From positions 1 through 33,709 of IMG/VR virus record IMGVR_UViG_3300032173_000021: a stretch of 33,709 nt of DNA. One strand, written 5' to 3'. The notes under the pieces are model-generated. The model was not told the origin of the DNA. It saw only the letters and a program-made list of their open reading frames with translations, and did no database searches. This document shows, one piece after another, positions 8,743-33,353 of this stretch. How positions within the stretch are numbered: the stretch's first letter is position 1; each line of letters starts with the position of its first letter. The position numbers and the translations under genes are program-made. Source of the DNA: a virus.

Positions 8743-8757
8743 TTCCGATTATCGGAT
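8743..8757. repeat. 15-base palindrome copy (13/15), TTCCGATTATCGGAT
   Basis: The inner 13 bases match the consensus perfectly. The stop codon of the 1639-aa gene (TAA) lies inside it. Confidence 0.75.
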
Positions 8758-11700
8758 CTGTGCTGTAGTTCCTCCGGCTTCACGCTTGGCGATGATGTCT
8801 TCGCGGGCTTGCTGCCCTGCTTCAGAGAAGATACCACGAATCAGGATCTTCTTTTCCTCGTTTGTGGTGTCCTTGTAGTAGGGGTCCCGCAGCATGTTCG
8901 TCAGCCATTCCTTTGCCAGCGCCCCGCGCACTTCTTGGTACTCGCCGTATTCCTGCGCGGTCATATCAACTTCTTCATCGCCGATTCTCATTTTCTTTGA
9001 AGGTTTCCCGAAAGCTATTCCCAGCCGTGTAAGTTCCTTTTCAACTTCCCCACCCTTTACTCGGGAGACCTGAACTGGGGACGCAAACTTTCGCAGGAAT
9101 CCGCCCTCTCGCTCCTGTGGTTGGCCGAAGACACCGCGAACTGGGGGCAGTTCTTTGCTCAAGCCGGGAATGCGTGCTTTGAAAGATTCACCCACCGTTG
9201 TTGCAGTTCGCAGGTAGGGATCAGTAGCACGCGCTGCTTCTGCTAGCACGTTTGGAACGGCGGTCCCCATGATGCCTGACAACCACTTTCCACCATACCG
9301 CTCCGGGTCCGACACGGCCATTACTACGTCTGAGATGCCGCGCAAGAACGTCTTGTTGAGAAAGTTCTGCGTCACCGAGAACGAAATCTTCCCCGCCAAG
9401 TCGCGCTGGGTCATTTCGTCCTTCTCGTCAAACGTCTCGTAGTAGTCAGCGGACAAACCCAACACAGTGCCCAGTGGTTCCAACCGACCGTAAGAGTAAT
9501 AGTTGTCGCCCACCTTCACGCTGTAGGGTTGCCAGCCAGTTTCGTACAATGCCCGCTTCTCGTTTGGATCGCTCGGCCCACCACCCGTGATCTTTCCTTC
9601 CGATGCCAGCATGACTACAGCAGCGCCAACCATTGAACCAACAAGAGGTTTCGTTATCGCCGCTGAGAGTTCACCACCCTTCAGCGCCGTTCCCGCCCGA
9701 GACTGCTTGTAAAGAAGGTGGAGAAGTTCAATCGGCGTTCGCTCAAAACCGTACTTGGCGATATTCAAAGGCGTCCGCATGAACGGCACGATATACCGGA
9801 TCGGCCAAGATTTTGACCGCACGCTTTGGAGTGCTTTCCCCACCGGGCCGAGTTCCTGGTTGAAAGTGCGGTAGAACATTTCCGCGATTGACGCCTCATG
9901 CTCTGGGCCAGCTTCAGACTTCACAATTTCCGCGATGCGGTTGGAACGCGCCTGTCCAGTTAGCCCTTCCTTGACGGCCACACGGTAGGCTTGGGCATAC
10001 TTCGCCGCGCTGTAATTGAGAGCCTTGAAGAAGTCGTCCTCTGCAACCAGCGCACGACCTGGACTTCGGATGGCCTTCCCGATTTTCCCAGGAATCGCCT
10101 TGGTCTGCGCTTCTTCCATTTTGGCATGGCCCATCGACGTTTCGTGCTTCCAAGCCTTTGCCGCATCCACTACCGCATTTCGCCAGCCCGCGATGGTTCC
10201 GTACACGTCAGCAGCAGCTTCGCCCATGAACCGCTCTTGCTGGGTCCCTGTGAATTTTGCGCGCAGGAAGTCGATTCCGCCTTCGGCGAACCGCTCGAAT
10301 GGGGTGCTGAGTTTCACCAGCAGGTTCGACGTGGTGTTCACAAGATGCGTTTTTGGGCTGCTCAGTAGCGCATTGATCCATGCCTCGTAGATCATGTCAG
10401 AGATGCCAGGTTCCGCAGCGCCTTTGATGGCCACTCCCAGTTCACGCAGTTTTTTCACCACAGCATCCGGCACAGGTTCTTGGTAGGCACGAACCGCACG
10501 ACCAGCGGCACGACGGGTAGGTTTGTATTCTTTCTCAACGAACTGCTTGAACGATTCCTCGGCTGCGGACAGCAGTTTAACCATCCGAGGAGTACCAGAC
10601 TTCTTGGCCATTTCGCGGATTCTGCTCATTTCTGTATGCAAGACCAGCAGTTGCGCGTTCACGTTCTTGACCATCGCCTCAGAAACCTTGCGGGTAGGTG
10701 TCGGGCGCCCCTCGTGCTTGATTCCCGTGCGAACTTCTTTGGGTTGGAGAGTTCCAGTTTCTTGGATGTTCTCCATCTGGTCGGCAATCAATTGTGCCTG
10801 CTCAGTCAGCTTCGTTCCGAAGTCGGCGATCTTCTCGGATACCACTTGCATCTCTGGCGTCGTTCCCATCCGAGCCTCTGCCTCAGCCATCGGGCCTTTG
10901 GGTGCTGGCGCGAACCGAGCTTTCAGTCCAGATAGAGCTCGCTTCAGTGTTCCCTTCGCCTCTTGTCCCAAGAATTCCACGTCCTTGGCCAACTCAGGGA
11001 ACGCACGGCGCAGCATCCCGGGAGGTGGCACGCCAGCCACCGAGAACATGCTGGGTTCCTCACGCTCTCTCAGAATTGCTTCGCGTGCGGTGTCTTCGTC
11101 GGCTTCAAGGCCAGACTTACGCAGCGATTCCATCTTGGCTTCGATCTGCTCTTGAGACGGTTGGTTGAGCGCACGCTTCGCTGTCTCGACCGGACCGAAC
11201 ATCTCTTTTTGCGGCGCCGCTTCCGTTCCGCGGAACAGTGGCGAACCTTCGATTGCCGCACCCTTTTGCTGGACCGGAGTCCGCATCTGCTCACCCATCT
11301 GCTCGGCCTGGGTACGGCCCAAGGCTTCCTTGGCGCGCTCGACGACATCTTCCATGCCCGGAAAGATAGCCTCTTCTGCGGGCGGTACCTCCGGCGCGGG
11401 TGCCTCTAGTGGCCTCAATTCAAGTGGAGGAGCGCCCGCTGGCTGCATGGTGGGGCTTTGGGCTGTCCTCGGTCGGCCTTCTGTGGGACCAGCGGGCTGC
11501 TCCACAGGACGTTCGCGTAATGCCTGTTTCAGTGTCGGTTCCTGACCCATCCCCAAACGCTTCTGAATCTCACCAACCTGCTTTTCAAGGCGCGCGGCCT
11601 CGGCCATCAACGCACGCTCGGCGCGCACAAGGTTCTTGGGGATTTCCTTCCCCTCTTTCCGCATCTTGGCGATTTCCCTGACCGTGCGCTCGAACTTCCG

Positions 11701-13668
11701 GCGTGCGGATTGCACCTTCCCCGCCGTGTCCATCATCTCGACCAGCGCATCGGTGAATCCGCGCTCCATCTTGAATCCCAGCCCGAGCGAAAGCTGCTGC
11801 TGCGCCATCGGTGCCAGCGTATCAATCGCCTCAGAAAGTTTCGCCGGCGTGATGTCGTAGACCTTGATGAAATTGTCGAAAATCTCCATCTGGATTTCGG
11901 GTGATAGTTTGTGCTTGCCCGCAGCTTTTCCCAGTGCGGTCGCCAGTGGCAGTTTGAACGTCCCGTCCGCAACGTAGCCTTTCAGGGCTTCGGGCAGGTT
12001 GTTGAGGGCGAGCCGGTCGGTGACGGTGGATTCTTTGATCCCGCCGTAAAGTTTCCCAATGTCGGCCGTGCTCCGACCATCGCTAACGTCAGCCGCAAAT
12101 GCCTTAGCTTCCGCGATGGGAGATAGAGGGACCGGTTGCGAGTTGGACCGCCGAGCATAGTCCATCGCCTCCTTTTCGGTGCCGCGAAACTCGTTGACTG
12201 GAACTTCTTCGATCCCTGTGCGGCCGGCCGCTTCGAGTCTGTGATGGCCAGCAATCACATAGGCCCGTCCATCCTTCGGGTCTCGCCAAACCGTGAGCGG
12301 CTCTTTCGGGTCGTAGCCTTTCTCCGCCATCTGCTCGCCGATCCACTGTACCCGGCCCTCAGAAAGACCTTCCCGCGGCTGGAACCTTTGCGGATCGGTC
12401 GCCAAGTCCGACAATCGGACAAGCACCGGAGCCTCTGCCGGACGGCCCTGAATGGCTGCTTTTGCCACCTTAACAGGCTCAGGGACGGGCTGAGCGGCTT
12501 GGGCAGGTGGTAACGGCTTAACCGGAGGTTCGGATGCGGCAGGCACCGCCGTGGGCGCAAGAGGCTGCTCTGTAGGGGCAGGAGCGGCCTCACGAGGCGG
12601 TCGCACCTGGCCCTGGGAAGGTTGAACAGGTGGTGCCGGAGGCCGCTCCAACTCTGGCGCTGCTTCTGCCGTGGGGAGGACTGCGGGAATCCCTTTGCGG
12701 CGCGCTTCTTGCTCTGCCAAGGCTCGGCGCACTGTATCGAGCGTTTCGGCGGTAACTGGGAATTCGGGCTGACCAGCTTCCCGGCGCAACATCTCCTTCC
12801 AGTCACTCTGAAATCTACGTTGCGAGATTGCGGCGGGCTTACCTGGAATCGGCGCTTCTTGAACTGGGGGTTCTTCCAGTCCGGGTGGTGCTGGTTCGGC
12901 AACCAATTCACTGGCAGGGGCTTGTGGCGATCTTGCCGCTTCTGCCTCGGCTTGGAGTCTCGCACCTTTAGCCAACCGTGCTGTACGAATAGCTCTCGGA
13001 CCTTCGGCAACCCCTCTTGTCATTGCCGCGGCCATTGCGGGACGTAACAACGCAGCCTGTACCTCTTCGGGGCTCGGAGAAGGTAGAGCTTTCTCGCTTT
13101 CGGGGTAAATCAGTGAGCCAGCGGATCTGCTCAGCGTGCGAACGTCTTCGGGAACGCCAGAGAGCGCTTCGGCTGCGAACGGTGCTATGAGGTACGGTGC
13201 GGCTGCTGGTTCAACTCCAGACGCAATCGTGGCCGCCAACCCCGCCGGAGTTTGCAGGAAATCCAAGAACCCGGCACCCGTCTTGGCGATGTCCCGCACG
13301 GCACCAGCAACCCTGCCTTGGGTCTTGGCTCGGGCCTCGCGCTCCTCGACCGTTTCACCACGCCGCTGAGCGGCCGGCAATGTCGTCTTTTCAACGAACT
13401 GGGAAATTGTTCCTTGGCCAAGCTGCTCGGAGATGGGCTTCGTCAAAAGAGGTCCAACTGCATCCAGCGCCTTGGCCACCAGCGGGTGTCTTTCATCGAA
13501 TCCTACGGCCGGCTCCATCGCTAGGTTCGGATCGGTGCGTGCCGCATCTGCCGCCGCTTTTGCCCGAGCGATTGTGTCTGGCGGCTCCTCTACTGACCGC
13601 TCACGGATTCCTCCGAGTGGACGCTCACGGATTGGTCTTTCTCGAATTGGATTTGCAGCCGTCGCCAC
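8749..13668 (-). CDS. Giant internal-virion-type polyvalent protein with ParB-like domain (1639 aa)
   Basis: This is the largest gene in the window. Residues 1-250 are Ala/Arg-rich and helical. Residues about 250-410 are a Pro/Ala/Glu linker. Residues about 416-600 form a ParB-type domain: VRLSDLATDP, then AYVIAGHHRLEAA (the GxxR box) and a helical DNA-binding part. Long helices follow at about 640-900. A C-terminal region (about 1090-1500) has INALLSSPKTHLVNTTSNLL, FMRTPLNIAKYG and YSYGRLEPLGTVLGL. These are signatures I associate with large polyvalent phage proteins (LPD38-like) thought to be packed in the virion and injected. The start is GTG (13668), overlapping the previous stop by one base. 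The DNA-binding role of the ParB part is inference. Confidence 0.75.
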   Translation of the reverse strand: MATAANPIRERPIRERPLGGIRERSVEEPPDTIARAKAAADAARTDPNLAMEPAVGFDERHPLVAKALDAVGPLLTKPISEQLGQGTISQFVEKTTLPAAQRRGETVEEREARAKTQGRVAGAVRDIAKTGAGFLDFLQTPAGLAATIASGVEPAAAPYLIAPFAAEALSGVPEDVRTLSRSAGSLIYPESEKALPSPSPEEVQAALLRPAMAAAMTRGVAEGPRAIRTARLAKGARLQAEAEAARSPQAPASELVAEPAPPGLEEPPVQEAPIPGKPAAISQRRFQSDWKEMLRREAGQPEFPVTAETLDTVRRALAEQEARRKGIPAVLPTAEAAPELERPPAPPVQPSQGQVRPPREAAPAPTEQPLAPTAVPAASEPPVKPLPPAQAAQPVPEPVKVAKAAIQGRPAEAPVLVRLSDLATDPQRFQPREGLSEGRVQWIGEQMAEKGYDPKEPLTVWRDPKDGRAYVIAGHHRLEAAGRTGIEEVPVNEFRGTEKEAMDYARRSNSQPVPLSPIAEAKAFAADVSDGRSTADIGKLYGGIKESTVTDRLALNNLPEALKGYVADGTFKLPLATALGKAAGKHKLSPEIQMEIFDNFIKVYDITPAKLSEAIDTLAPMAQQQLSLGLGFKMERGFTDALVEMMDTAGKVQSARRKFERTVREIAKMRKEGKEIPKNLVRAERALMAEAARLEKQVGEIQKRLGMGQEPTLKQALRERPVEQPAGPTEGRPRTAQSPTMQPAGAPPLELRPLEAPAPEVPPAEEAIFPGMEDVVERAKEALGRTQAEQMGEQMRTPVQQKGAAIEGSPLFRGTEAAPQKEMFGPVETAKRALNQPSQEQIEAKMESLRKSGLEADEDTAREAILREREEPSMFSVAGVPPPGMLRRAFPELAKDVEFLGQEAKGTLKRALSGLKARFAPAPKGPMAEAEARMGTTPEMQVVSEKIADFGTKLTEQAQLIADQMENIQETGTLQPKEVRTGIKHEGRPTPTRKVSEAMVKNVNAQLLVLHTEMSRIREMAKKSGTPRMVKLLSAAEESFKQFVEKEYKPTRRAAGRAVRAYQEPVPDAVVKKLRELGVAIKGAAEPGISDMIYEAWINALLSSPKTHLVNTTSNLLVKLSTPFERFAEGGIDFLRAKFTGTQQERFMGEAAADVYGTIAGWRNAVVDAAKAWKHETSMGHAKMEEAQTKAIPGKIGKAIRSPGRALVAEDDFFKALNYSAAKYAQAYRVAVKEGLTGQARSNRIAEIVKSEAGPEHEASIAEMFYRTFNQELGPVGKALQSVRSKSWPIRYIVPFMRTPLNIAKYGFERTPIELLHLLYKQSRAGTALKGGELSAAITKPLVGSMVGAAVVMLASEGKITGGGPSDPNEKRALYETGWQPYSVKVGDNYYSYGRLEPLGTVLGLSADYYETFDEKDEMTQRDLAGKISFSVTQNFLNKTFLRGISDVVMAVSDPERYGGKWLSGIMGTAVPNVLAEAARATDPYLRTATTVGESFKARIPGLSKELPPVRGVFGQPQEREGGFLRKFASPVQVSRVKGGEVEKELTRLGIAFGKPSKKMRIGDEEVDMTAQEYGEYQEVRGALAKEWLTNMLRDPYYKDTTNEEKKILIRGIFSEAGQQAREDIIAKREAGGTTAQIR
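12406..12420. repeat. 15-base palindrome copy (13/15), GTCCGACAATCGGAC
   Basis: It lies at the start of the ParB-like domain of the 1639-aa gene. It is identical to the copy at 20849-20863. Confidence 0.65.
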
Positions 13669-14942: not shown

Positions 14943-15755
14943 CTATCCCTCCCGCCCGATGTAGCCTGGGACTCCTGGCTCAATGTAGTGAAGTTGCCCG
15001 CTGATATTCGGGATCTCGCAGCCCATCATCGGACAAAACACACTTGGCCCAGAATCCCTGTCCATACAAAGCGTACACGCATGGAACCAGTCTGGGTTGC
15101 CCGAAATGTCTGCGTGCTCTTTGAATCCATTGTTGCGGTTGTAGCGAGACTCGTGAACCGGCACTCCAAACTTTTCGTGGTACTCCCAAATATCAGCATC
15201 CGTGAAGTGCCGCAAAGGGAAAGCATAAGCCGGCGCTCCGTGGTTGATATTGATGTCCACCCGCAGCGGGATTGGCCCAACAATCGGGTCCACGTCGCTG
15301 CTCTTGTGACCTACAAAAACCACGTCCCACGGAAACACGAAAGTCCCGGTCGGTTTCAGGTACAGGTCTTTGTAACCACAGAGAAAATCCTTGCCCTCTT
15401 CTGGCTCACGAATCCCTGTAGGCAGATAGGCCGTTTTCACCTGTCCTACCTGATACCAATTCACGATCTCCATCTTCCCGTTGTTCTTGACGACCGAAAC
15501 CGACGTGGGTTGATAGTCATAGACCGTGTAGCCGTTTTCGAGAATCACGCGATTGGCGAAGGCATACTTCTCTGGCGAGAACGGCTCTCTGTGAAAGAGA
15601 ACGGGCAGTTTCTTCCTTGTACGCTTCAGGAGATCAAGCATCACCATCGAGTCTTTTCCGAAGCTCGACATGACCACCGGATTGCTGAATCGTTCTGTTA
15701 CCAGACCGATCAACCAGTTGGCGTGCTCGATTTTTTCCTCAAGCGTTTTCATCAC
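14943..15755 (-). CDS. PAPS-reductase-family (PP-loop) protein
   Basis: This 270-residue protein belongs to the PAPS reductase/PP-loop ATPase superfamily. The SSFGKDS loop (30-36) binds the phosphates, and the PLRHFTDADIWEY segment (about 180-192) is characteristic. Four cysteines sit near the C-terminus: C227-x2-C230 and C241-x4-C246, possibly an iron-sulfur or zinc site. The ECGxH tail with the catalytic Cys of assimilatory PAPS reductases is absent, so classical sulfate reduction is doubtful. Related phage proteins and DndC-like proteins act in sulfur transfer or DNA modification. It starts GTGATG overlapping the previous stop and sits between virion genes, an unusual place. Confidence 0.85.
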   Translation of the reverse strand: MMKTLEEKIEHANWLIGLVTERFSNPVVMSSFGKDSMVMLDLLKRTRKKLPVLFHREPFSPEKYAFANRVILENGYTVYDYQPTSVSVVKNNGKMEIVNWYQVGQVKTAYLPTGIREPEEGKDFLCGYKDLYLKPTGTFVFPWDVVFVGHKSSDVDPIVGPIPLRVDININHGAPAYAFPLRHFTDADIWEYHEKFGVPVHESRYNRNNGFKEHADISGNPDWFHACTLCMDRDSGPSVFCPMMGCEIPNISGQLHYIEPGVPGYIGREG

Positions 15756-16704: not shown

Positions 16705-17424
16705 TCAATCTATGAAAAACCGTCTTGGGTCTCCTCCACTGGGACTCTCTGAAGGTGGCATTCCCGAAGGCGTTCCTGTTGCGGCTCCGCCCGTGGCGCC
16801 ACTGGCCCCGGTGCCACTCGATGAGCTGTCAGCACGACTCCCCGTAACCTGGTCCCCGGAAATCAGAAGGTTTGCATAGACCGTCACGGTTGCGCTGAAG
16901 GTTGCGGCGTTGGCCATGCACTCGATGTCAATTCCTCGCGCCGAGTTGGGGATCGAGAGCAGGGTCAGAACACCGTTCGCTGCGAGTGTGTTGCTGTAAA
17001 TGTTCGTGCCCTGAATCTTGAGACGAACAGCCCCGTCCCCCGTCACAACTACATTGAATTCTAGCTTCCGCGTGTTGGCTGGCGGGATCAGCAGAATCTC
17101 TTCGACCACTGTGAATGTTCCGTTGGTCGTGCTGCCTGTGTATTCCACAGGGAGCCGCAGCAACCCGCTCAGACCGTTGATCGGCGCCGCCCATCCATTT
17201 TCATCCGTGCCAGATACTTTTTGATAGAGCGATTCCCCTAGCAGCGGGTCTGTTGGGATGTAGAGCGTCCCGGGTAGCGCCGCTACCTCTCCGTTCGGCT
17301 CTCCCTGTCCCTTAATGATGGGCACGGCGTTAATCGCCCCGACGACCTTACGCAAAGTCTCGTAGAGATACGGCTCTGCGGTTGATTTCAGTTCTTCGAG
17401 TTCGGGAATGATAAGTTTCCCCAT
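16705..17424 (-). CDS. Tail-fibre or virion surface protein (239 aa)
   Basis: The N-terminus is helical (KLIIPELEELKSTAEPYLYE). A neck-like stretch follows with GTLYIPTDPLLGESLYQKVS (about 52-72), a pattern common in phage fibre proteins. The main domain (about 90-200) is beta-rich, and the C-terminus is a Ser/Gly/Pro/Thr-rich tail. The ATG at 17424 is preceded by GGAGG (9 bases) inside the end of the tailspike gene and was chosen over a start 57 codons upstream that would overlap that gene. It probably attaches to or caps the tail structure; no exact family is known to me. Confidence 0.6.
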   Translation of the reverse strand: MGKLIIPELEELKSTAEPYLYETLRKVVGAINAVPIIKGQGEPNGEVAALPGTLYIPTDPLLGESLYQKVSGTDENGWAAPINGLSGLLRLPVEYTGSTTNGTFTVVEEILLIPPANTRKLEFNVVVTGDGAVRLKIQGTNIYSNTLAANGVLTLLSIPNSARGIDIECMANAATFSATVTVYANLLISGDQVTGSRADSSSSGTGASGATGGAATGTPSGMPPSESPSGGDPRRFFID

Positions 17425-17426
17425 TA

Positions 17427-20400
17427 TCAAATGCCTCCAGTATGACAAGCTATTTTGAATGATTCGCCATTTGAAGGTGTACCTCCAAAGGTCAGCACAA
17501 GCGAAGTAGCCGTCTGCGTCGTGGTAGTGAACGTGATGGTCGGCTGGTTGGCGTATTCCTGCCGCACGCATACCCAAATTGGCGCAGTAGTCCAAGTCCC
17601 ATCCTTCGGCGTGTAGGTGATCGTCGGGCTGGCTCCCTGTCCTGTTCCTGCGCTGGTCACGACGAACTCAAAGAATTGGTCAACGCCGCGCACAGAGCCG
17701 ACACTCGCTGTCGTGCCCCATCCCGCCGAGAGCGCGAAGTCGCCTGCGACGAGGGCGGTGCCTCCTGATGCTTTAATGCGAGCGAGATTCAGCCTCCCAC
17801 CAGCATTTGTCGCATCTCCGTTGCGGAGTGTAACTTCTCCCAAGTCGAGGAAGAATGTTGTCCCTGCTGTACCAGTCCGCAAAGAACTTCCGCTTGCCAG
17901 ATAATTCACACCAGTTGATGAGTTGTTTGTAGATGTGTTGGAGATAGTAGAACCAGATTGAAAGAACGGATTGATAATTTGCAAATCGTACACGGAGTTG
18001 TCGGCATTGACCGATACTCCACCAGCATGGCTGTGTCCGGGGTTAATCAGCGTGACCTTGCCTATGTTTCGTAGGAAGAAGCCGTTTCCCTCTACTGCTG
18101 CTGCTGTCACAACGACCGTCAGTCCGACGGCTGTAAAGGTGTTTCCGGTCCTATCAATATGGAATGAATATGCCGTTGCGTCCGTTCCCTGTTCGTGCCG
18201 GCAGTTGAGAATTGAAATTTCGTGAGACGATGTACTCGGGGCACCCCCGTCCACCCAATACAAGAAACGCTTTCCGCCTGCTACGGTTACATGGTCTATT
18301 TCGAGGTTCGTGACGGAGATATTCGTGCCAATCGTGATACCGTTGTAGGCGCTTCCGGGATACAATTCTAAATTTCGGAGGGTAATAAAGTCGGCGTCAA
18401 ATCTAGGCGGATTGTACGGGTTCTTATTGATGAGGATAGGTTGATCAGCAGACAGATTCATCTCTTCGAGCAAAATGAAGTCTTGCCCTTGAATGTCTAC
18501 GCCTATTGATCCGTGGCCGATTCCGTTCAACATGTCTATATTGAACAGATGAACTTTTGAGCCATTGATAATCTGAATAGCAGTAAACCCTGTCGTATTG
18601 TTCCCTGCATCAATGGCGAACCCCCCGATAGAAACGAAATATGTGATGGCGGAGCTTCCGGAATCAACCTTAAAGATAGGCGCGGTTCGCGTAGCGGCAA
18701 CAGCGATGGCGGGAGTCCATCGACCGAATGTCACGACATGTTGCTTGCTGTTAGAAATAGTAACCGTAGTTGTCCCGTCATCTCCGTATTCGCCCAAAGG
18801 ATTTCCGTTGATTGGGACGAGCACCACTATACCGGGGCCATTGGCAAGAGAATCTACGGCAGCCTTAATTCCCGCAACGCTCTGCGCGTACTTCACCCCA
18901 TCCACGAAGATGATATTATTCACGCTCGCTGTGCGTATCTTTGGGTACGAAAGCGTTTGTCCTGGCAATCCACTCACTTCTCCGACCGATGCCGTGTTCG
19001 GGTAACTTGCCAGATTCAAGGCAATCTCTGCTGCTTCGTTGTCAGACACCACACCAGCCGGGATGCGGAAAAGAACCGGCCCATAGAAGTCTATCTCACC
19101 CGCACTGTTCGGGACGGAATGTCCCAGGAACTGCAACAAGATATTGCCGCCAGCGCTGGTTCCAATCTTCGCCCAATTAGAGCACCATACCCAATCGTCG
19201 AGCTGGCCCTTAATTGCCGGTCCACAGTACGCTTGTGCGCCACCGTTCGTAAACTTGTAGGAATCACTGCCAGTGCTTAGAACCACCGGATATTGTTGAA
19301 CGGCTCCACTGTGCGTTCGGAACCACACACCGTAGATGAAGATGTCGCCCAGTGCGGCAGTCTGCGTGCTGAAGTAAAAACGCGGCCCCGCGTAGTAACC
19401 ATTGGCGTTGACCACGCGAGCAGCACCAGCTGTTCCATCAGGACTATCAATTCCAGTCGTGATGGTCACATTGCTTCCGCCCCAGTTCCAGCCATCAGGA
19501 TACGTCCCGCCAGGGTTCGTGATTGCAAGATTCGCGTAGCGAACAGCTACGGGCGGGAAGTTTCTCCGTGAAGCATTGATTCGAGCTTGGAGTGTTGGAT
19601 AGCCGCCACCCCATCCACCGCCAAAGAACCCTACTCCGCGCGTTCCTGCCGGAGTTGTCGTGGCGTTTTGGTCCTGAGCGGGATATTGACCCACCACAGT
19701 TGCTGGCCCAACTACGGCGGCGGTTGCCCCGCTTCCGGCGGCCCCGTTTACCCACACAGCACTCGGTGGACCTTCCCCATCCACTCGAACAGCGGGAACG
19801 GCTACGGTGTAATCAGCCAGTTGGATATTTTCTAGCCGTGCAAATCCGTAGCCATTTGTGTTTGTAAACCACACACCGGGCGCGTCATTTGCGCCACCGC
19901 CCTCTACTGTCCAATCCGTTACAAATAGAGACCACGCAGCAGTCGGCCTAAACTTGATACCTCCGCCACGCGTACCGATGCTGTTCGTCACGTAAATCAA
20001 CCCGGTCGAGTATACACTCACAGGGTCAATGAGCAGACCTGCGTGTTTATCGCTGGACGAAACCTCGGCGGAATTTCCTGCGATGGTGCAGTGGTCAAAC
20101 CAAATCCAAAAGGAGCCCGGTCCAATCTCAACCCCCGGTCCATTTCCGGCCACTTGGTTAAGATTCCACGAAATGTTATGGAACTCGAAGCCCGCAGATG
20201 CGCCCAACGCACCTGTCTTCGAGCCATCTGAGTCAATACCAATCGTCATAAACCGACCGGGGTATTGAACTTGGATATTTGACATAGTAATTCCGACGTT
20301 CACTCCAGAGAATCGGAACGTCGGATACGCAGGGTCTTGGGACGGAGCGAAAATTAAAGCCTTCGACGGGCCGTGCTCAAAGTTGCCGTGGAAGTCGCCC

Positions 20401-20903
20401 GTACCAATGATATTAAGTGCCTTCTGCTGACGCCAACCAGCCGGGGGGCTGGCATAGTTTGGGTCGCTGGGCCCCACCATCCAGAGTCCAGCGTAAGAAG
20501 GGGTACCGCCGAAATTCACGTGAGTGCCCGGCGGTGTGTGAACATAAATGGTCCCGCCGTTAGTAAGAGCGTCTACACAAGCGAGAAGCGTCTGCTTGGC
20601 GAGGGTGAATGAAAGTCCGGATGCTGCATCGTTCCCGTCTGGATGCACAAAACAAACTGCATCGCCCACATTGAAAATCGCCCCCCCCATGCAGGAAGCC
20701 ACCCCACCAATCCTCTGGCGTATACAGCCGAGATCGGAGTTGTACCACATATCCCCGTTGGCGAAGGTCATCATGCCTTCTTGCGCCGTGGTTAAAGGAA
20801 CCAATTCCAACTGAGCGATACGTGTTGGTCGTATGGTCTGCGCTTGAAGTCCGACAATCGGACAACCCAGAATGAGTGCGGCGATGAACAGTGTGCGTCT
20901 CAC
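17427..20903 (-). CDS. Tailspike with pectate-lyase-like beta-helix and N-terminal signal peptide (1158 aa)
   Basis: The GTG at 20903 has GGGAGGG 4 bases upstream and begins MRRTLFIAALILGCPIVGLQAQ, a clean bacterial export signal. The in-frame extension to 21089 overlaps the previous gene and is rejected. After a short adaptor-like segment (LTTAQEGMMTFANGDMWYN) come two parts with right-handed beta-helix character. The first, about 100-450, contains IWFDHCTIAGN. The second, about 660-1000, has repeated short Asn/Gly-rich strands such as LFNIDMLNGIGHGSIGVDI. The middle (about 470-640) looks like a carbohydrate-binding beta-sandwich. The C-terminus is a small beta domain. It probably binds or degrades surface polysaccharide. 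A signal peptide on a tail protein is unusual. Confidence 0.75.
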   Translation of the reverse strand: MRRTLFIAALILGCPIVGLQAQTIRPTRIAQLELVPLTTAQEGMMTFANGDMWYNSDLGCIRQRIGGVASCMGGAIFNVGDAVCFVHPDGNDAASGLSFTLAKQTLLACVDALTNGGTIYVHTPPGTHVNFGGTPSYAGLWMVGPSDPNYASPPAGWRQQKALNIIGTGDFHGNFEHGPSKALIFAPSQDPAYPTFRFSGVNVGITMSNIQVQYPGRFMTIGIDSDGSKTGALGASAGFEFHNISWNLNQVAGNGPGVEIGPGSFWIWFDHCTIAGNSAEVSSSDKHAGLLIDPVSVYSTGLIYVTNSIGTRGGGIKFRPTAAWSLFVTDWTVEGGGANDAPGVWFTNTNGYGFARLENIQLADYTVAVPAVRVDGEGPPSAVWVNGAAGSGATAAVVGPATVVGQYPAQDQNATTTPAGTRGVGFFGGGWGGGYPTLQARINASRRNFPPVAVRYANLAITNPGGTYPDGWNWGGSNVTITTGIDSPDGTAGAARVVNANGYYAGPRFYFSTQTAALGDIFIYGVWFRTHSGAVQQYPVVLSTGSDSYKFTNGGAQAYCGPAIKGQLDDWVWCSNWAKIGTSAGGNILLQFLGHSVPNSAGEIDFYGPVLFRIPAGVVSDNEAAEIALNLASYPNTASVGEVSGLPGQTLSYPKIRTASVNNIIFVDGVKYAQSVAGIKAAVDSLANGPGIVVLVPINGNPLGEYGDDGTTTVTISNSKQHVVTFGRWTPAIAVAATRTAPIFKVDSGSSAITYFVSIGGFAIDAGNNTTGFTAIQIINGSKVHLFNIDMLNGIGHGSIGVDIQGQDFILLEEMNLSADQPILINKNPYNPPRFDADFITLRNLELYPGSAYNGITIGTNISVTNLEIDHVTVAGGKRFLYWVDGGAPSTSSHEISILNCRHEQGTDATAYSFHIDRTGNTFTAVGLTVVVTAAAVEGNGFFLRNIGKVTLINPGHSHAGGVSVNADNSVYDLQIINPFFQSGSTISNTSTNNSSTGVNYLASGSSLRTGTAGTTFFLDLGEVTLRNGDATNAGGRLNLARIKASGGTALVAGDFALSAGWGTTASVGSVRGVDQFFEFVVTSAGTGQGASPTITYTPKDGTWTTAPIWVCVRQEYANQPTITFTTTTQTATSLVLTFGGTPSNGESFKIACHTGGI
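20849..20863. repeat. 15-base palindrome copy (13/15), GTCCGACAATCGGAC
   Basis: It lies within the signal-peptide coding part of the tailspike gene (CPIVGLQ). Confidence 0.65.
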
Positions 20904-21208: not shown

Positions 21209-23806
21209 CTACGTTACCCCCTGCTTGGCCCAAGCCTTCGTGTAAATTCTCAGACGCTTGCACTGAAAGAACGCACCTACCGCATTCGTCCCGAAGCGCA
21301 GCCGAGCCCGGTCAGTTTCGAGATTCGCCTGCCTTTCAACGTCCGATGGCGGCCCAGCAGCAAGGGTGATACCCGTCAGGTTCGCCACCGCCACATCATT
21401 CATCCCGCGGATACTCGAAGTGAATGTACCAGAACCGGAGACAAGGAACGCCGCGCCGCCGTACAAGTCGGTGCCACCCTCTCCCTGCCTGACGTAGGCG
21501 GTCTCGTAGAAACTATCGATGGCATGACCGTAATCATCCGTTCCAGCGTTCTCGACAATCGCTCCGAACGCCCCGTTGACCTCAATGGCGAAGTAAAGAG
21601 CTTGTCTCTTGGTTGAGGTCTCAAGACAGATCGAAGCGTGAACGCCAAGCAAATTAGCGTCGGCGTTGAAGTAGTCTAGTCCCCACTTGCGATCACCCTC
21701 TTCCCATCCTTGCGAATAATCCAGAATGATCGCGTGACGCGGCTTGATGTCTGCATCCAGTGGCACAAAGAACATGACGATCTCCTTCTCCGGGTCAATG
21801 AGCGTGTGAATCTTCTCGGAGACGTTCCAATTGATGCGGTTCCAGGTCGTCTGAATCTCCTGACTGAGTTTCAATCCTGTCGGTCCGCGGAACATATAGG
21901 CACCCGCCCGGGACGCCGTGATGATGAATTCCGAAGTCAGGTCAATCGCATTCGGAGAGGCGGCACCAGCTTCAGAATCGGCCAAACTCGTCGGCCAGAG
22001 TGATGGCGGGCTAATTCCGTCATCCTCAGTGGTATGAGTCGATCTCTCCTTGAAAACGTAGAAGTAACTCCTGTGCTGTACGCCGGCCACAATTCTCTGC
22101 CCGTCATCTTTTTGGATGACCACGAATCCGTTGATGCTGTCGAAGCGGTCAGCATTCTCTGGATCGGAAATCCGCAGCACGGAAGCATCGTACTTGATGT
22201 TCGTGGGCCATACTTGGATGCGGTCAATTTCCACATAGTCGCCAGCATTGAAGTTGATTCCCGCGACACCTTTGACGTACACCCGAAGCTGAAGATCTGG
22301 GGGAATGACCGCCAATTCAGACGTGAGAACCGCAGAAAACTCTTTGTACTTGGTGCTGAACCCAAAGTTCACCGGATCGAGCGGGACTTCTATCCCATGG
22401 GTATCCACGCCGGTTCCAACCACGTCTACTACCATTTTGCAGAAGTTCGGAGTGAATGCCGCAGAAAGTCGGGCTCGAATGGACACAGAGTAGGACGTGT
22501 TCGGCAAGAGTTTTGTGGCCGCTTCGGGGTTGCCAATTTCTCCCGTGTCCACAACGGCGTTTGCACCAGTGATTCTCCAACAGTCTCCGGCAAATCCAAG
22601 TGCGCTTTTCGCTCCGCCCGCGAATCCCGCCCGCTGTCTCCAGCCAAGCGGTTCCCCGCCCGTGGCGAACCCCCCGTCGAAGTCGAGATTCAGCATCTTG
22701 ACCGTGTTCAATCCACCGAACGCCACGATCCTCTGGTTATACATCGCAATTCCAGCCTGGTCGGGCAACCTGAAATTTCGGCTGTAGCGATTGTAGTTCT
22801 CTCCCTGCAACAACTCCGAGTCCGTGAAATTCAAGTCGAATGTAGTACTCGTGTTATCCGGTACGCGGAAGCGTGGGAGAAAGAAAAAGTTCTCCTGATC
22901 CCCTGAAGCGCCAATCGCAATCCTGCGTGCGACGACGTAGCTTGGCCCTGTGGGAAGCGCGCTGAAAGCTACTCCGGTAGCTCCTGCGCTTGTCCATTTC
23001 CCGGCTGGGCTACGCTCGGTGATGTAACCAGAGCGTGTCTCGAAAAGAACGATGAACTGATGGTCCCCAACCTCGATTTCGCCGACGCAGGTTGCCGTCC
23101 CCCCGCCACTGGTTGTATCCGCCCCCGCGTTCGCGTAGGTAAAAGTCACTGAGTCGATCACGTCCACGATGAGAACCACGCCGTCGAATGTGGCATCGGT
23201 GACGCCCGCAATCGTTACGGTCTGGTCGGCTACCATTCCGTGCGCGGTTGTGGTCTTGATGGTTGCCACGTTAGACACGCGCACTGCACCATCCGGTGCC
23301 GCAGCGATGGTCTTCGCTGGGGGAGCACCATCAATGGCAGATCCGGGAGCGGCTGGTCCGCTCGGCGCCAAATGGTCAACATTTGTACCGTCATAGCTGC
23401 GAACGGGCGCTCCAGGAACCAATCCAGCACCATAAAAAGACTCGTAGATCCGATTGAACGCCAACACGGACTTCATCATCGAAGTGGGATTCGCAACCCC
23501 CTCTTTCAGCAAGAGCATCTGCGCGCCAGAGTCGATATACAAATCCCCGAGAGCGTCTAAAGAAAGCAGGCTTTTGTTCCCAAGGTTGTTGATGAATTGT
23601 GCGAGCCCGTACTGGCCGTTGAGAGAGATATTGCCGGTATCTTTGGTGAACCGATTGGTCAGTCCCGGCCGGGTCTCCACTGAACCCGGCCTGAAGCGCA
23701 CATTTTGGAGGGAAGGCGACCATCCGCGCGGCACGTCCACGTCACGGACGAACGTGTATAAGCCCGCAAGTCGGTCAATAGTCTTTTCAACGAAGCTTTC
23801 AAACAA
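21209..23806 (-). CDS. Large beta-rich tail protein, nozzle/stabiliser-like (865 aa)
   Basis: The N-terminus has FVRDVDVPRGWSPSLQNVRF followed by RPGSVETRPG. I associate this pattern with podovirus tail proteins that follow the adaptor (T7 gp12 / P22 gp10-like nozzle). An inserted Ig-like repeat (about 165-240, VSNVATIKTTTAHGMVADQT) precedes a large beta-propeller-like body. The body contains QRIVAGVQHRSYFYVF, LWPTSLAD and repeated aromatic strands. The C-terminal part has SGSGTFTSSIRGMNDVAVAN. The start is TTG (23806) with GGAG 6 bases upstream; no ATG fits. It probably closes the portal channel with the adaptor. This is inference from order and pattern. Confidence 0.65.
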   Translation of the reverse strand: MFESFVEKTIDRLAGLYTFVRDVDVPRGWSPSLQNVRFRPGSVETRPGLTNRFTKDTGNISLNGQYGLAQFINNLGNKSLLSLDALGDLYIDSGAQMLLLKEGVANPTSMMKSVLAFNRIYESFYGAGLVPGAPVRSYDGTNVDHLAPSGPAAPGSAIDGAPPAKTIAAAPDGAVRVSNVATIKTTTAHGMVADQTVTIAGVTDATFDGVVLIVDVIDSVTFTYANAGADTTSGGGTATCVGEIEVGDHQFIVLFETRSGYITERSPAGKWTSAGATGVAFSALPTGPSYVVARRIAIGASGDQENFFFLPRFRVPDNTSTTFDLNFTDSELLQGENYNRYSRNFRLPDQAGIAMYNQRIVAFGGLNTVKMLNLDFDGGFATGGEPLGWRQRAGFAGGAKSALGFAGDCWRITGANAVVDTGEIGNPEAATKLLPNTSYSVSIRARLSAAFTPNFCKMVVDVVGTGVDTHGIEVPLDPVNFGFSTKYKEFSAVLTSELAVIPPDLQLRVYVKGVAGINFNAGDYVEIDRIQVWPTNIKYDASVLRISDPENADRFDSINGFVVIQKDDGQRIVAGVQHRSYFYVFKERSTHTTEDDGISPPSLWPTSLADSEAGAASPNAIDLTSEFIITASRAGAYMFRGPTGLKLSQEIQTTWNRINWNVSEKIHTLIDPEKEIVMFFVPLDADIKPRHAIILDYSQGWEEGDRKWGLDYFNADANLLGVHASICLETSTKRQALYFAIEVNGAFGAIVENAGTDDYGHAIDSFYETAYVRQGEGGTDLYGGAAFLVSGSGTFTSSIRGMNDVAVANLTGITLAAGPPSDVERQANLETDRARLRFGTNAVGAFFQCKRLRIYTKAWAKQGVT

Positions 23807-26873: not shown

Positions 26874-28130
26874 TTAGATATTGTCGTACCCACTCGGCAG
26901 CTCAAGATTGGAGATGTAGCCGTTGGCCACTGGGTTGTCCACGAAAATCTGGCCCATCCAGATGATGTAGAACAGGATCGCCGCAGTGGGCGACCCGGTG
27001 GTGGAGTCATACGGGCGGTAGGTGATCTGCCCGCTCTTTTTGTCGCGCAGGAAGTCCACGGGATGCGACTCTGCGCGCCCGAACGACTCCATGTTCAGGA
27101 AGTCGATTCGGATACGGGAAGCGTGGATGTCCACCTGTTGCTTGACACCCGCCATGCGCTGATCTCCATACAGCAGGTCAACGGGCTCATTGGACGAACC
27201 CTTGTTGATCTCGGAAACCAGCACTGCCAGTTCCTCGTAGGCCGCTTTCTGGGCCGGGTGCAAGTGGGCCAGAAGGGACTTGGGATTCACCGTCCCGGCG
27301 CGCTGAAGGATCTTGTTCAGCACGAGTCGAATCGGGGGAGTGGTCAGCGCGTTGTTGCTCGCGTTGACGTTGTGCGCGCGAATGGCCGGTTCCGCAGCGC
27401 GGGAGAAACCAAGCCAGCTTCCGGTCGCGGCACTGCTGACGTGGTACGGAATTCCGAAATACCACGCTGGGGTCGCGCCCGAAAGTCCTTCGGGCAGGAT
27501 GTTGTACCCCTGGACTGCGCCGGGGTCGGCGTCCACGGTGATGGTGTTGTTCGGGTGGTCAATCGTGACGATGGTGGCCTCTCCGACCTTGGTACCCAGG
27601 TTCGCCGTGTAGACAGAAATCTTCTGCCCTTCACGAAGCAACTGGGTGTAGAACGGTCCGGTCATCGTCCAAGTCGTGCCCGCGACACCACCCGTGGCGA
27701 TGGTGGCCAGAATTCCGTCTCCAGCCGTCTGCATCCACGCATTCAACTGCGTGCGTGTTTCCTCCATCGCGCGAGTGACTTCCTGGGCCAGCAGGTTGAC
27801 GATTGCCTTTTCGCCTTCCGTCTCCGTCTGGATCAGCGCGTCCTCGTTGATTTCCACCGCGGTACGCATCGCAATCGGAGTCAGAACGGCCTTGTCGTAC
27901 TTGGTCGCTGCGCCGCGACCGAGCGCGCCGCCCGCCAAACTCACCGCACCAGACCGGGAACCCGGGCGGATCATCAGCGGAACGCGCATTTCGCGGCTTG
28001 AAACCTTTTGCACGTCGCGTGTCTTGATCTCGTTCCAAAACACGTCGTTGATGTGGAACAGTTTTGCCAGTGGCTTGCCCTTCACTTTTTCGAGTTGCAG
28101 GGCAACCACATCAGCAGTCGTTTGAGGCAT
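26874..28130 (-). CDS. Major capsid protein
   Basis: This 418-residue protein has the features of an HK97-fold capsid protein. There is an N-terminal helix, a strand region with VPLMIRPGSRSGAVSLAGGA and KYDKAVLTPIAMRTAVEINE, and a long spine helix region (about 100-135) with QEVTRAMEETRTQLNAWMQT. A beta domain follows (160-240). The C-terminal part (about 280-380) includes HPAQKAAYEELA and ESHPVDFLRDKKSGQITYRP. It follows the scaffold-like and portal genes, the standard order. The ATG at 28130 has AAAGGA upstream. The family assignment is by pattern and context. Confidence 0.8.
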   Translation of the reverse strand: MPQTTADVVALQLEKVKGKPLAKLFHINDVFWNEIKTRDVQKVSSREMRVPLMIRPGSRSGAVSLAGGALGRGAATKYDKAVLTPIAMRTAVEINEDALIQTETEGEKAIVNLLAQEVTRAMEETRTQLNAWMQTAGDGILATIATGGVAGTTWTMTGPFYTQLLREGQKISVYTANLGTKVGEATIVTIDHPNNTITVDADPGAVQGYNILPEGLSGATPAWYFGIPYHVSSAATGSWLGFSRAAEPAIRAHNVNASNNALTTPPIRLVLNKILQRAGTVNPKSLLAHLHPAQKAAYEELAVLVSEINKGSSNEPVDLLYGDQRMAGVKQQVDIHASRIRIDFLNMESFGRAESHPVDFLRDKKSGQITYRPYDSTTGSPTAAILFYIIWMGQIFVDNPVANGYISNLELPSGYDNI

Positions 28131-29629: not shown

Positions 29630-31792
29630 TCAAGCTGATGCTGGGCTCGGTGGTGCTTTCGGCTTACCCGGACCAGCAACCGGCTGTGGTGCCATTGCTT
29701 GCGCTTCTTGCACTAACTGCCTCTGCTTCTGCCGCAAAAACTCTTCGTGGGCAACTCCGTGGGCAATTACGTTCTGGTAGCCCATCTGATTATCGCGCTT
29801 GGCCTTGAGTCCATCGGCCGATACTGCCCACTCTTTGACGGCTTGGATGTGCTCCTGATGGTTGTCCTCGAACTTCCCGATTTGGATCGAGGGCATAATA
29901 GCACTCAGACCGTCTGGCGTGTCAACAACTTCCGGTTGGCCTTGGAGTAACTGGCGTATCTCGATGAGTTGTTTCGTCCGATCATCCTCACGAGGAATGA
30001 AGAGTTCGCGCAAGCCGAGCATCGCTTTGCCGTAGGCCATATTGTTGGTGTGACCCAAAATCTCTTGGATGAACGGATCGTTCCCGGACATCTCCATCAA
30101 CTTCAGGAAGATAGCTGATTGCTGTGTCCAAAGCTCAGGGAACGCTTCATTCGTCTCGGGATAGGCTTCAATCTGCCCCTTCAGGTTATCGACCAGAATC
30201 TCTCTGCCTTCGTACTCCCCGTTCTGCCCATGAACCGTGTAGGCCACGTCATCGGCCTCGCTCTTGGCCCACTCCCGGATGCTCTTGACCATGATGTTGG
30301 CCCATGCGGTTCTCATGTGCAGCCACGGACCATACATCTTTCCGAGTGCTTGCTCTCGATCAGCAAGATAGGTGGTGGGTTTCAGGCTTTGTTCAGTTCC
30401 TCCTGAAATGGTTGGAACCGCTCCAGTGACCGTCTCTCCCTTTTTCTCCAGACGGCCGCTCTGCCCGAACACTTCGCTGGCAATTTGTCCTGGGCGGGAT
30501 TCGTAAACCAGGTTTCCGAGCGGCATGTTTATCGGTGCTTTCACTCCATAGATGTTCCCAGGAACCCGCGACTGTCCGGCCAACGCATTCACATTCAGGA
30601 AAGCAGAATTGATGAGTGTGCCCTGGCCGGCTGCGGAGTATTCCACCCACTCCATGATGAAGTTTTCGAGTGTGTTGATGCGCTTATTGATGGAGATTGC
30701 TGAACTTCCCAGCGCCGGCTTATACATCCCCGGCCCTTCGTGGGCATGAACGAGTTCCCAGTGATCGTCCATGCTTTCGTCGCGCACATCGAGCAACTTG
30801 TCGGTCGCCATCGCTAGGTAGGCGCCAGTCGGAAATATTTCCTTCAGCCTTTCGCTGTACTTCTTGCCCTGAGTGTCTTCGCCCTTGACCATCTCGAACG
30901 AGGCTGGCCGCAACCAGTAGCGTTTCAAAGTCGCAAGGTTTTTGTTCCCTGCAGAGTAGTAGATGTTCGTGGATTCGTTGAGCAGTAACCGGGCGTAGCG
31001 GTCATAGTCGCCCGAGCAGGATGTCCCGCTTCCGCCCTCGCTCGCGCTTGCTGCGCTTCCGGTCCCTTCAATTCCTTCCGCACGCTTCCCGTAGGTGTGG
31101 AGAAGTTGCGACTTGTGGACTTCGTTGTGAAGCCCAAGGTAGGGCATGTCGGGCTGATCTGAAACCCACGGCGGCAATCGGAGTTCGAGCCCGCCGTGAA
31201 TCGAGATTACCTGCTGGCCCTTCGCCGTCTTCACTGTGGCCGTAACCTGCGGAACTTCGCCCATCTCTCCAGGAACAAAATCACCCTCTGTCAGTTCTCC
31301 CCCACAGTGCGGACAGGTCATCGTCGCCGCATTCTGCATGGGAACTTCGCTGTAGCAACTCGGGCACTCGAAGCGGTCTTCAGAGAGTTTGGTCGGCACC
31401 ATCGAAATCTGGTCAACGTCTCGGAAACCGAATCGTTCCCCGTCTACCAGGTAGCGGGTGTAGACTCCGCAGATCCCGTGGGTATACATCAAGTAGGCGA
31501 TGCGGAGATTCAGGAGAGACACGCGGTTCTGACGCTCCATGAGCGGAGCCAAGTCAGTAGCCGAACGTGCCGCAATAATGTCCAGTTCCTTGCGATAGTC
31601 GCTGGGGAAGAAACGAGTGGTAGGAATCTTCTGGCCAAGCACAGAAATCAGCGTCCAGCCCCAAGCGCGATAGAGGTTCGTTACGAAATCGAACCTCTGT
31701 CCAGATTCGCCAACCTTCTCACGGATGTTGTCCCAGGTGATCGGGCGCCAGATGTCGAGCTCGTGGTCCCAATAATTACGTTGCGCGTCTTT
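29630..31792 (-). CDS. Portal protein, main body (N-terminal part cut off by in-frame TGA codons)
   Basis: The frame is open from AAA at 31792 to the TGA at 29630 (720 residues). It reads KDAQRNYWDHELDIWRPITW, then FVTNLYRAWGWTLISVLGQK, the usual portal N-terminal region. A GTG at 31642 is the first start inside, but it would delete about 50 conserved-looking residues. The body includes a zinc-ribbon-like insertion (ECPSC and CPHCGGEL) and the helical stretches expected for a portal crown. The C-terminus is Pro/Ala-rich. The portal forms the dodecameric channel for DNA packaging. Upstream, TGA-CGA-TGA separates it from the same-frame 83-aa piece. Confidence 0.75.
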   Translation of the reverse strand, partial: KDAQRNYWDHELDIWRPITWDNIREKVGESGQRFDFVTNLYRAWGWTLISVLGQKIPTTRFFPSDYRKELDIIAARSATDLAPLMERQNRVSLLNLRIAYLMYTHGICGVYTRYLVDGERFGFRDVDQISMVPTKLSEDRFECPSCYSEVPMQNAATMTCPHCGGELTEGDFVPGEMGEVPQVTATVKTAKGQQVISIHGGLELRLPPWVSDQPDMPYLGLHNEVHKSQLLHTYGKRAEGIEGTGSAASASEGGSGTSCSGDYDRYARLLLNESTNIYYSAGNKNLATLKRYWLRPASFEMVKGEDTQGKKYSERLKEIFPTGAYLAMATDKLLDVRDESMDDHWELVHAHEGPGMYKPALGSSAISINKRINTLENFIMEWVEYSAAGQGTLINSAFLNVNALAGQSRVPGNIYGVKAPINMPLGNLVYESRPGQIASEVFGQSGRLEKKGETVTGAVPTISGGTEQSLKPTTYLADREQALGKMYGPWLHMRTAWANIMVKSIREWAKSEADDVAYTVHGQNGEYEGREILVDNLKGQIEAYPETNEAFPELWTQQSAIFLKLMEMSGNDPFIQEILGHTNNMAYGKAMLGLRELFIPREDDRTKQLIEIRQLLQGQPEVVDTPDGLSAIMPSIQIGKFEDNHQEHIQAVKEWAVSADGLKAKRDNQMGYQNVIAHGVAHEEFLRQKQRQLVQEAQAMAPQPVAGPGKPKAPPSPASA

Positions 31793-32924: not shown

Positions 32925-33353
32925 TTATGGCTTCTTTGCCGGCCCCTCGGGGTCGCTAGTCACTATCCACCACCCGCTATCCGCTTCTTCCGGCGGGATG
33001 GGCCTTCCCCGGCGAATGGTGGGCTTCGTTCCAAGCCAGACTTCGAGCACGTTGGAGTTCACGGATTCAATACCGTCCTCATCCACCGCGCGCGCGACGT
33101 AGAACCACCGTCCGCTGCCGGGCGTATCTGAAAACGTCAGGAGAATAATCGGCGCGGTATTCACTTTGAGGCACGTCTCGTCGGTAATCCCTACCTCTCC
33201 CTGCAGTCCGCATCCCTCCGCAGTCTCTGTGCGGTACAGGTTGTAAGTCACCCCCGGTGTGGAAGAGGCATCCCACGATATCGAGACGTTCTGTGCTGCA
33301 CAGGTGAGCGGTAGAAGCACGTCCAGCGCCACGAGGAGCGCAAATCGTTTCAT
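32925..33353 (-). CDS. Secreted fibronectin-III-like protein (142 aa)
   Basis: A signal peptide is clear: MKRFALLVALDVLLPLTCAAQ, with probable cleavage after Ala-Ala. A single fibronectin type III-like domain follows (about 22-108), with VSISWDASSTPGVTYNLYRT and WFYVARAVDEDGIESVNSNV. The C-terminal tail is Pro-rich and charged. Such domains in phages are often on virion surfaces, but here the export signal points to the cell envelope or outside. The ATG overlaps the previous stop (ATGA). The role is unknown. Confidence 0.7.
   Translation of the reverse strand: MKRFALLVALDVLLPLTCAAQNVSISWDASSTPGVTYNLYRTETAEGCGLQGEVGITDETCLKVNTAPIILLTFSDTPGSGRWFYVARAVDEDGIESVNSNVLEVWLGTKPTIRRGRPIPPEEADSGWWIVTSDPEGPAKKP

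Follow-up and report, generated by a model that had tools for sequence, protein, structure and literature searches.

A tailspike-type protein with a predicted Sec signal peptide in the virion operon of a podovirus-like phage, and its signal-bearing counterparts in related and Acidobacteriota phages

Introduction

Tailed phages are taught to assemble in the cytoplasm of their host. Here, we describe a gene at positions 17427–20903 (minus strand) of a 33.7-kb virus record (IMG/VR record IMGVR_UViG_3300032173_000021, positions 1 to 33,709; this whole stretch of DNA is referred to as the window) that encodes a tailspike-like protein of 1158 residues, hereafter the spike, with a predicted Sec signal peptide at its N-terminus. 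The tailspike depolymerases (P22 gp9, the Klebsiella K1 and K2 depolymerases and the tailspike proteins of CBA120) resemble it in having a right-handed β-helix (Z scores of 12–15), in being encoded in the virion operon and, for one conventional tailspike, in having the same C-terminal domain; unlike them, the spike has a Sec signal where they have a tail-binding domain and has a carbohydrate-binding module (CBM)-like module after the helix. WceF of Pantoea stewartii is likewise a tailspike-like β-helix with an export signal and acts on exopolysaccharide, but it is the product of a bacterial biosynthesis-operon gene outside any phage and its signal is of the twin-arginine translocation (Tat) type (PMC7949094). 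Phage lytic-cycle proteins that are exported by the host Sec system are known from Lys44 of the Oenococcus phage fOg44 and from the signal-arrest-release (SAR) endolysins (PMC6116005); those are lysis enzymes, whereas here the protein is of the spike type and is encoded in the virion operon, and other phages have whole blocks of such genes. Phages of Porphyromonas gingivalis carry Sec-signal genes that expose an N-terminal Gln, according to the Q-rule (PMC10367356), but these are reported as genes of unknown function and not as tail spikes, and the host phylum is Bacteroidota.

Tunturi 1, a podovirus-like isolate of Tunturiibacter psychrotolerans and thus an Acidobacteriota phage (PMC11924767), shares with the window the presence of signal peptides on large tail-module genes, there as a block (gp12–gp17), although we detected no sequence similarity between these proteins and the spike; the signals are unmentioned in the main text of the Tunturi paper (PMC11924767). 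In the open-access papers searched, signal-peptide tailspikes were nowhere described as a trait that recurs among phages. From the analysis that follows we consider it likely that the spike is a Sec-exported tailspike-type protein of a podovirus-like phage and that its signal is functional, under selection and recurrent both in the virus group of the window and in other Acidobacteriota phages.

Start site and signal peptide

Read along the minus strand, the stop codon of the upstream gene (TGA, 20917–20915) is followed by the Shine–Dalgarno (SD) sequence GGGAGGG (20914–20908, assigned from the sequence), the four nucleotides ATTT and the GTG start codon (20903–20901). This is the start that was favoured in the initial annotation, and the choice stands: the SD sequence is strong and coding usage begins at GTG 20903. 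An alternative start at GTG 20918 would retain the signal peptide. The initial annotation had also raised an upstream start that buries the hydrophobic segment, which codon usage does not bear out: the extension from GTG 21089 is non-coding (log-likelihood −6.5) and the gene that it would overlap is coding (+15.6), and the segment is therefore not buried. Within the gene, an ATGATG at residues 44–45 closely follows a purine-rich stretch (AAGAAGG), and this is the sole basis for the idea of a dual start with a cytoplasmic form. That translation really begins at GTG 21089 or at the internal ATG, giving a protein with no signal or in two forms, is nevertheless very improbable given the SD sequence and coding usage at GTG 20903, the non-coding extension and the homologues, which begin with signals (in one case, L130 below, also behind a strong SD sequence).

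The N-terminus of the spike, VRRTLFIAALILGCPIVGLQA (residues 1–21; 20841–20903, minus strand) followed by QTIRPT, shows the three-part layout (n-, h- and c-regions) of a Sec signal peptide; the n-region is positively charged and the site for signal peptidase I (SPase I) is LQA↓Q (the arrow marks the predicted cut), so that cleavage is predicted between MRRTLFIAALILGCPIVGLQA and QTIR. It was scored with a simple home-made predictor that takes account of charge, the hydrophobic core and the residues at −3 and −1. The spike scores 5.23, and none of the 390 internal start codons in the genes of the window reaches 5.0. Of all 15-residue stretches in the protein, the most hydrophobic one also falls within the signal (mean Kyte–Doolittle hydropathy, KD, of 2.63); the other hydrophobic stretch, at residues 922–939, has a mean KD of 2.15 and is β-strand-like by sequence. 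The signal peptide ending LQAQ that was called in the initial annotation, with the advice to run a signal-peptide predictor, is thus borne out by our score and by the presence of the Sec/SPase I pattern, and at the level of sequence the N-terminus is confirmed as a classic Sec/SPase I peptide.

A lipobox-like ILGC had been remarked on as well. The string exists, with its Cys at residue 14, and LILGC matches the residue pattern of a lipobox, in which case SPase II would cut before Cys14 (LILG↓C) and the spike would be anchored in the membrane. In a bacterial lipoprotein, however, the lipobox stands at the end of the core and is conserved in homologues, whereas Cys14 lies in the middle of the hydrophobic core with the LQA↓Q site downstream of it and is not kept in the relatives; the homologues L130, L131 and L115 have SPase I sites, and the relatives show Gln at +1. 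We therefore regard a lipoprotein as most unlikely.

Relatives of the spike

Whole-protein searches with the spike found no relatives in viral contigs, INPHARED or the PDB. A search of 396 Acidobacteriota genomes yielded two domain relatives, and the alignments built with these (A4 and A5) reached viral contigs. One contig encodes a protein (L130) with 31% identity over spike residues 85–617 (E = 4e-38); this protein begins with the signal MRRIVLLLLFFGSFVGTARG↓Q behind the SD sequence AGGAGG and its neighbour is another signal-peptide gene. In a second viral contig (L131) two matches (25–28%) fall within one 2133-residue protein bearing a signal peptide. An Acidobacteriota genome (G283) encodes a protein with a signal (L115) that is homologous to the CBM domain of the spike; in this genome a siphovirus-type tail module, with a neck protein and a λ-J-like tail protein, stands directly ahead of a pair of consecutive signal-peptide genes, of which the second is the homologue of the CBM domain. 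All of the body homologues that are readable to their start (L130, L131 and L115) have a signal.

The C-terminal domain of the spike (residues 1036–1158; 17430–17798, minus strand) is shared with three proteins that all have signals (L124, L125 and L126; 52–69%) and with two tail proteins that have only this domain in common with the spike and have no signal (L127 and L129), of which L129 begins with a conventional-tailspike N-terminus. It is also found in a signal-bearing protein that stands alone among host genes in an Acidobacteriota genome (L116, in G031). Judged from these matches, the C-terminal module is one that moves among signalled spikes, unsignalled spikes and a host secreted protein, and exchange with host genes is plausible because L116, a secreted protein of a host chromosome, has the same domain. 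The L116 gene (L116:2101–4407) adjoins that of a shorter signal-peptide protein and is possibly a domesticated spike or a source gene. In L124 and L125 several signal-peptide genes follow the spike homologue in a run, like the block in Tunturi 1.

Virus group, Tunturi phages and control phages

Searching with the portal protein of the window found 74 viral loci and Granulicella mallensis, and the capsid gene was found in 64 loci; a second Acidobacteriota genome has a contig that carries both the portal and a signal-peptide spike. Several of the loci have signal-peptide tail-type genes, the spikes L011 and L015 among them. One spike family (A3), which has no detectable sequence relationship to the window spike, has 20 members in viral contigs, and in every one of them a signal precedes QG[ST]RKDD. 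The A3 signals of divergent members share 15% identity, compared with a family mean of 67% for the first 100 mature residues, yet they are always hydrophobic (minimum core KD of 2.50), which is the pattern expected from selection on function and not on sequence. In the contigs examined, the A3 spike gene has the capsid gene on one side and the adaptor/tail genes on the other. The portal and the L015 spike had no match among cultured phages, and the capsid alignment (A2) was too diverse for use as a scan query. Upstream of the portal, five loci (L002, L003, L039, L040 and L042) encode proline- and cysteine-rich proteins of about 275–380 residues with lipoprotein-like or signal N-termini, which are possibly related to the envelope or to lysis.

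By its annotated starts, Tunturi 1 has N-terminal signal peptides on gp12, gp13, gp14 (annotated as the tail spike), gp16 and gp17; its terminase, portal, capsid, internal proteins and core head and tail proteins have none. All of its large spike-like genes are signalled, and it has no obvious receptor-binding protein without a signal. The control virion genes of SU10, P22 and KP34 gave one weak signal match in 39.

Cysteine content and the +1 residue

The median Cys content of the mature signal-peptide proteins is 1.79 per 100 residues, compared with 0.64 for the other virion proteins. Over automatically found non-redundant clusters with at least two Cys, the number of mature Cys is even in 19 of the 23 signal-protein clusters and in 20 of the 45 large non-signal clusters; two of the odd cases among the former look like site errors (gp12 has 20 mature Cys at a better site, and the count for L039 included the lipobox Cys). 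The window spike has ten mature cysteines. Predicted secreted proteins of Granulicella also mostly have an even number (27 of 36). The enriched and mostly even cysteines suggest that oxidative folding may be continuing in these proteins.

Gln occupies the +1 position of 31 of the 35 phage signals, both those of the window among them; this count leans to Gln because the phage script sought a site followed by Gln. The script used for Granulicella ignored the +1 residue and gave Gln in 31 of 60 predicted Sec signals (400 kb of Granulicella mallensis; L132–L151). The +1 Gln being common to both, the phage signals appear to be adapted to the way in which the likely host phylum secretes its proteins. 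The pattern is similar to the Q-rule that has been described for Bacteroidetes (PMC5837995, PMC10653852), and the Granulicella count suggests that this rule may extend to Acidobacteriota.

Fold of the spike body

The spike body has no match to any Pfam, PHROG or NCBIfam profile and no sequence match in the PDB, and residues 22–78, which follow the signal peptide that stands in place of an N-terminal tail- or virion-binding domain, similarly match nothing in Pfam, PHROG or NCBIfam. The family PF12708 (Pect-lyase_RHGA_epim) is not matched by the window spike but is matched by its relatives L115 and L124 and by the group member L011. A single-sequence AlphaFold model of the whole spike was useless, with a predicted local distance difference test (pLDDT) score of 34. 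Modelling residues 60–660 with three added sequences from two relatives (a four-sequence model) gave a pLDDT of 70–83 over much of fragment residues 180–340 and a usable β-helix.

The model was compared with known structures using Foldseek and VIA-align. Residues ∼79–422 (19638–20669, minus strand), a region also covered by the homology to L130, match the K1 lyase (PDB code 7w1c; Z = 15.2, 3.1 Å over 219 residues), the DpK2 tailspike (7lzj; Z = 15.2, 4.0 Å over 247 residues), the P22 tailspike (Z of about 12) and the bacterial WceF (Z = 12.6), and we assign to them, with moderate confidence, the right-handed parallel β-helix of phage tailspikes and depolymerases. Residues ∼450–615 (19059–19556, minus strand) match the CBM4/22-like module 2wys (Z = 9.8, 2.9 Å over 141 residues) and are homologous to part of L115 (L115:14107–18402), consistent with a CBM4/22-like carbohydrate-binding jelly roll. 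A second β-helix is probable at residues ∼655–960 (18024–18941, minus strand), tentatively assigned by inspection of the translation pattern; no reliable model was obtained for this region. The β-helix domains of the initial annotation thus hold for residues ∼79–422, by a model that matches tailspikes and with no profile match, while the second helix stays tentative. On the modelled fold, the spike is probably a polysaccharide-binding protein of the tailspike type, and probably a polysaccharide-degrading one.

Genome context in the window

The window encodes a helicase, a replication initiator, exonucleases and a cell-wall hydrolase, as well as virion-type genes for an internal virion protein, an SU10-like adaptor, the major capsid protein (26874–28130, minus strand; a marker of the virus group) and the portal (29630–31642, minus strand), which was named from its position and its relatives and was used to find the group. 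The spike gene sits within this virion operon, as expected of a tailspike. A conserved tail/virion protein of the group with no signal peptide (21209–23806, minus strand) serves as a syntenic marker. A tRNA scan of the whole window found none.

Upstream of the portal gene is a second gene for a predicted signal-peptide protein (32925–33353, minus strand), called from its signal score; it begins MKRFALLVALDVLLPLTCAA↓QNVSISWD (cleavage LTCAA↓QNVSISWD), is Fn3-like by inspection and has two mature Cys. Further small signal-peptide proteins are found in L031, L025 and L028. Immediately downstream of the spike gene is that of a small fibre-like protein without a signal peptide (16705–17424, minus strand). 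A segment of this protein resembles residues ∼900–947 of the signal-peptide spike of L115 (E = 4e-4), and spike modules may thus be split into separate genes in the window. A 1639-residue internal-virion-type protein (8749–13668, minus strand; phrog_6651) has a ParB-like domain at residues 415–585 (phrog_1033, E = 4.8e-25), and a PAPS-reductase-like gene (14943–15755, minus strand) lies within the virion module.

Discussion

We propose that the spike, a product of the virion operon, is synthesized as a Sec precursor, which host SecYEG would export and host signal peptidase I would cut at LQA↓QT. The protein would then fold outside the cytoplasm, probably with disulfides; these steps follow from what is established about signal peptides, taken with the data above. 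The spikes would remain in the periplasm or at the surface of the cell until lysis frees the particles, and would then join virions. The initial annotation had suggested that the protein might be exported, and export is the likely consequence of so clean a signal peptide on a protein of the tailspike type; we infer export itself, the disulfides, enzymatic activity and attachment to virions. Attachment at lysis appears to be the most likely single fate of the exported spikes, with about an even chance of being right, and is favoured because the genes belong to the virion operon, Tunturi 1 has no obvious unsignalled spike and the C-terminal domain is that of a tailspike. The broader proposition, that synthesis of receptor-binding spikes as Sec precursors is systematic among phages of Acidobacteriota-like hosts, the spikes folding extracytoplasmically, forming disulfides and attaching only at lysis, is plausible and we hold it rather less firmly.

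The protein might instead be a free secreted depolymerase or receptor blocker that is exported during infection and is never on virions, either trimming the exopolysaccharide of the host or its neighbours and so freeing progeny, or coating receptors against readsorption and superinfection. The usual tail-binding N-terminus is missing, and cleavage would take away the end by which tailspikes are usually fixed to the tail; WceF, which is among the matches to our model, is a Tat-exported protein of the tailspike fold that acts on the exopolysaccharide of its own bacterium (PMC7949094). The same C-terminal domain is present in the standalone secreted host protein L116, and the window also has the small fibre-like protein at 16705–17424, which lacks a signal. 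A free protein sits less easily with a gene that lies within the virion operon across the virus group, with a C-terminal domain in common with the conventional tailspike L129 and with Tunturi 1, in which every large spike-like gene is signalled and no receptor-binding protein is obviously left unsignalled; we judge it to be a substantial possibility, if a less probable one than attachment at lysis. Much less probable is that the signal is a vestige with no present role, left over from the capture of a host secreted β-helix enzyme, as had been suggested in the initial annotation. L116 is a secreted, host-chromosome relative of the C-terminal domain, and the signals are host-like in their Gln at +1, but signals have been kept across homologues at 25–31% identity and in all 20 members of A3 at 15% signal identity, and the cysteines are enriched and mostly even.

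Several observations weigh against Sec export of the spike as a selected and recurrent trait. The tail proteins of Tunturi 3 and Tunturi 4 have no credible signal, and the trait is common in these phages, not universal; no such spike was seen near the portal of the Granulicella prophage. The signals were called by a home-made predictor and are predictions from sequence, and parts of the cysteine and +1 data are related by descent, which weakens the statistics. Confidence in the model is moderate (overall pLDDT of 49.6), the fold being firmer than its details. The window is one contig, and an Acidobacteriota host for this virus is suggested by its relatives. Finally, no established route by which a Sec-exported protein could reach a tailed phage assembled in the cytoplasm is known to us.

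In one study the absence of signal peptides was taken as support for a phage origin (PMC6199706), and the presence of one can correspondingly be taken to mean that a phage gene came from bacteria. In surveys of soil viruses, exported-spike genes could also be misidentified as auxiliary enzymes of host origin. With Tunturi 1 and its host in culture, the question is directly testable. The recurrence of an export tag on tail proteins points to deliberate export of tail parts from the host cytoplasm by these viruses. Conserved exported spikes, if true, would imply either that virion assembly has a new, extracytoplasmic last step or that infection has a dedicated arm of secreted depolymerases.

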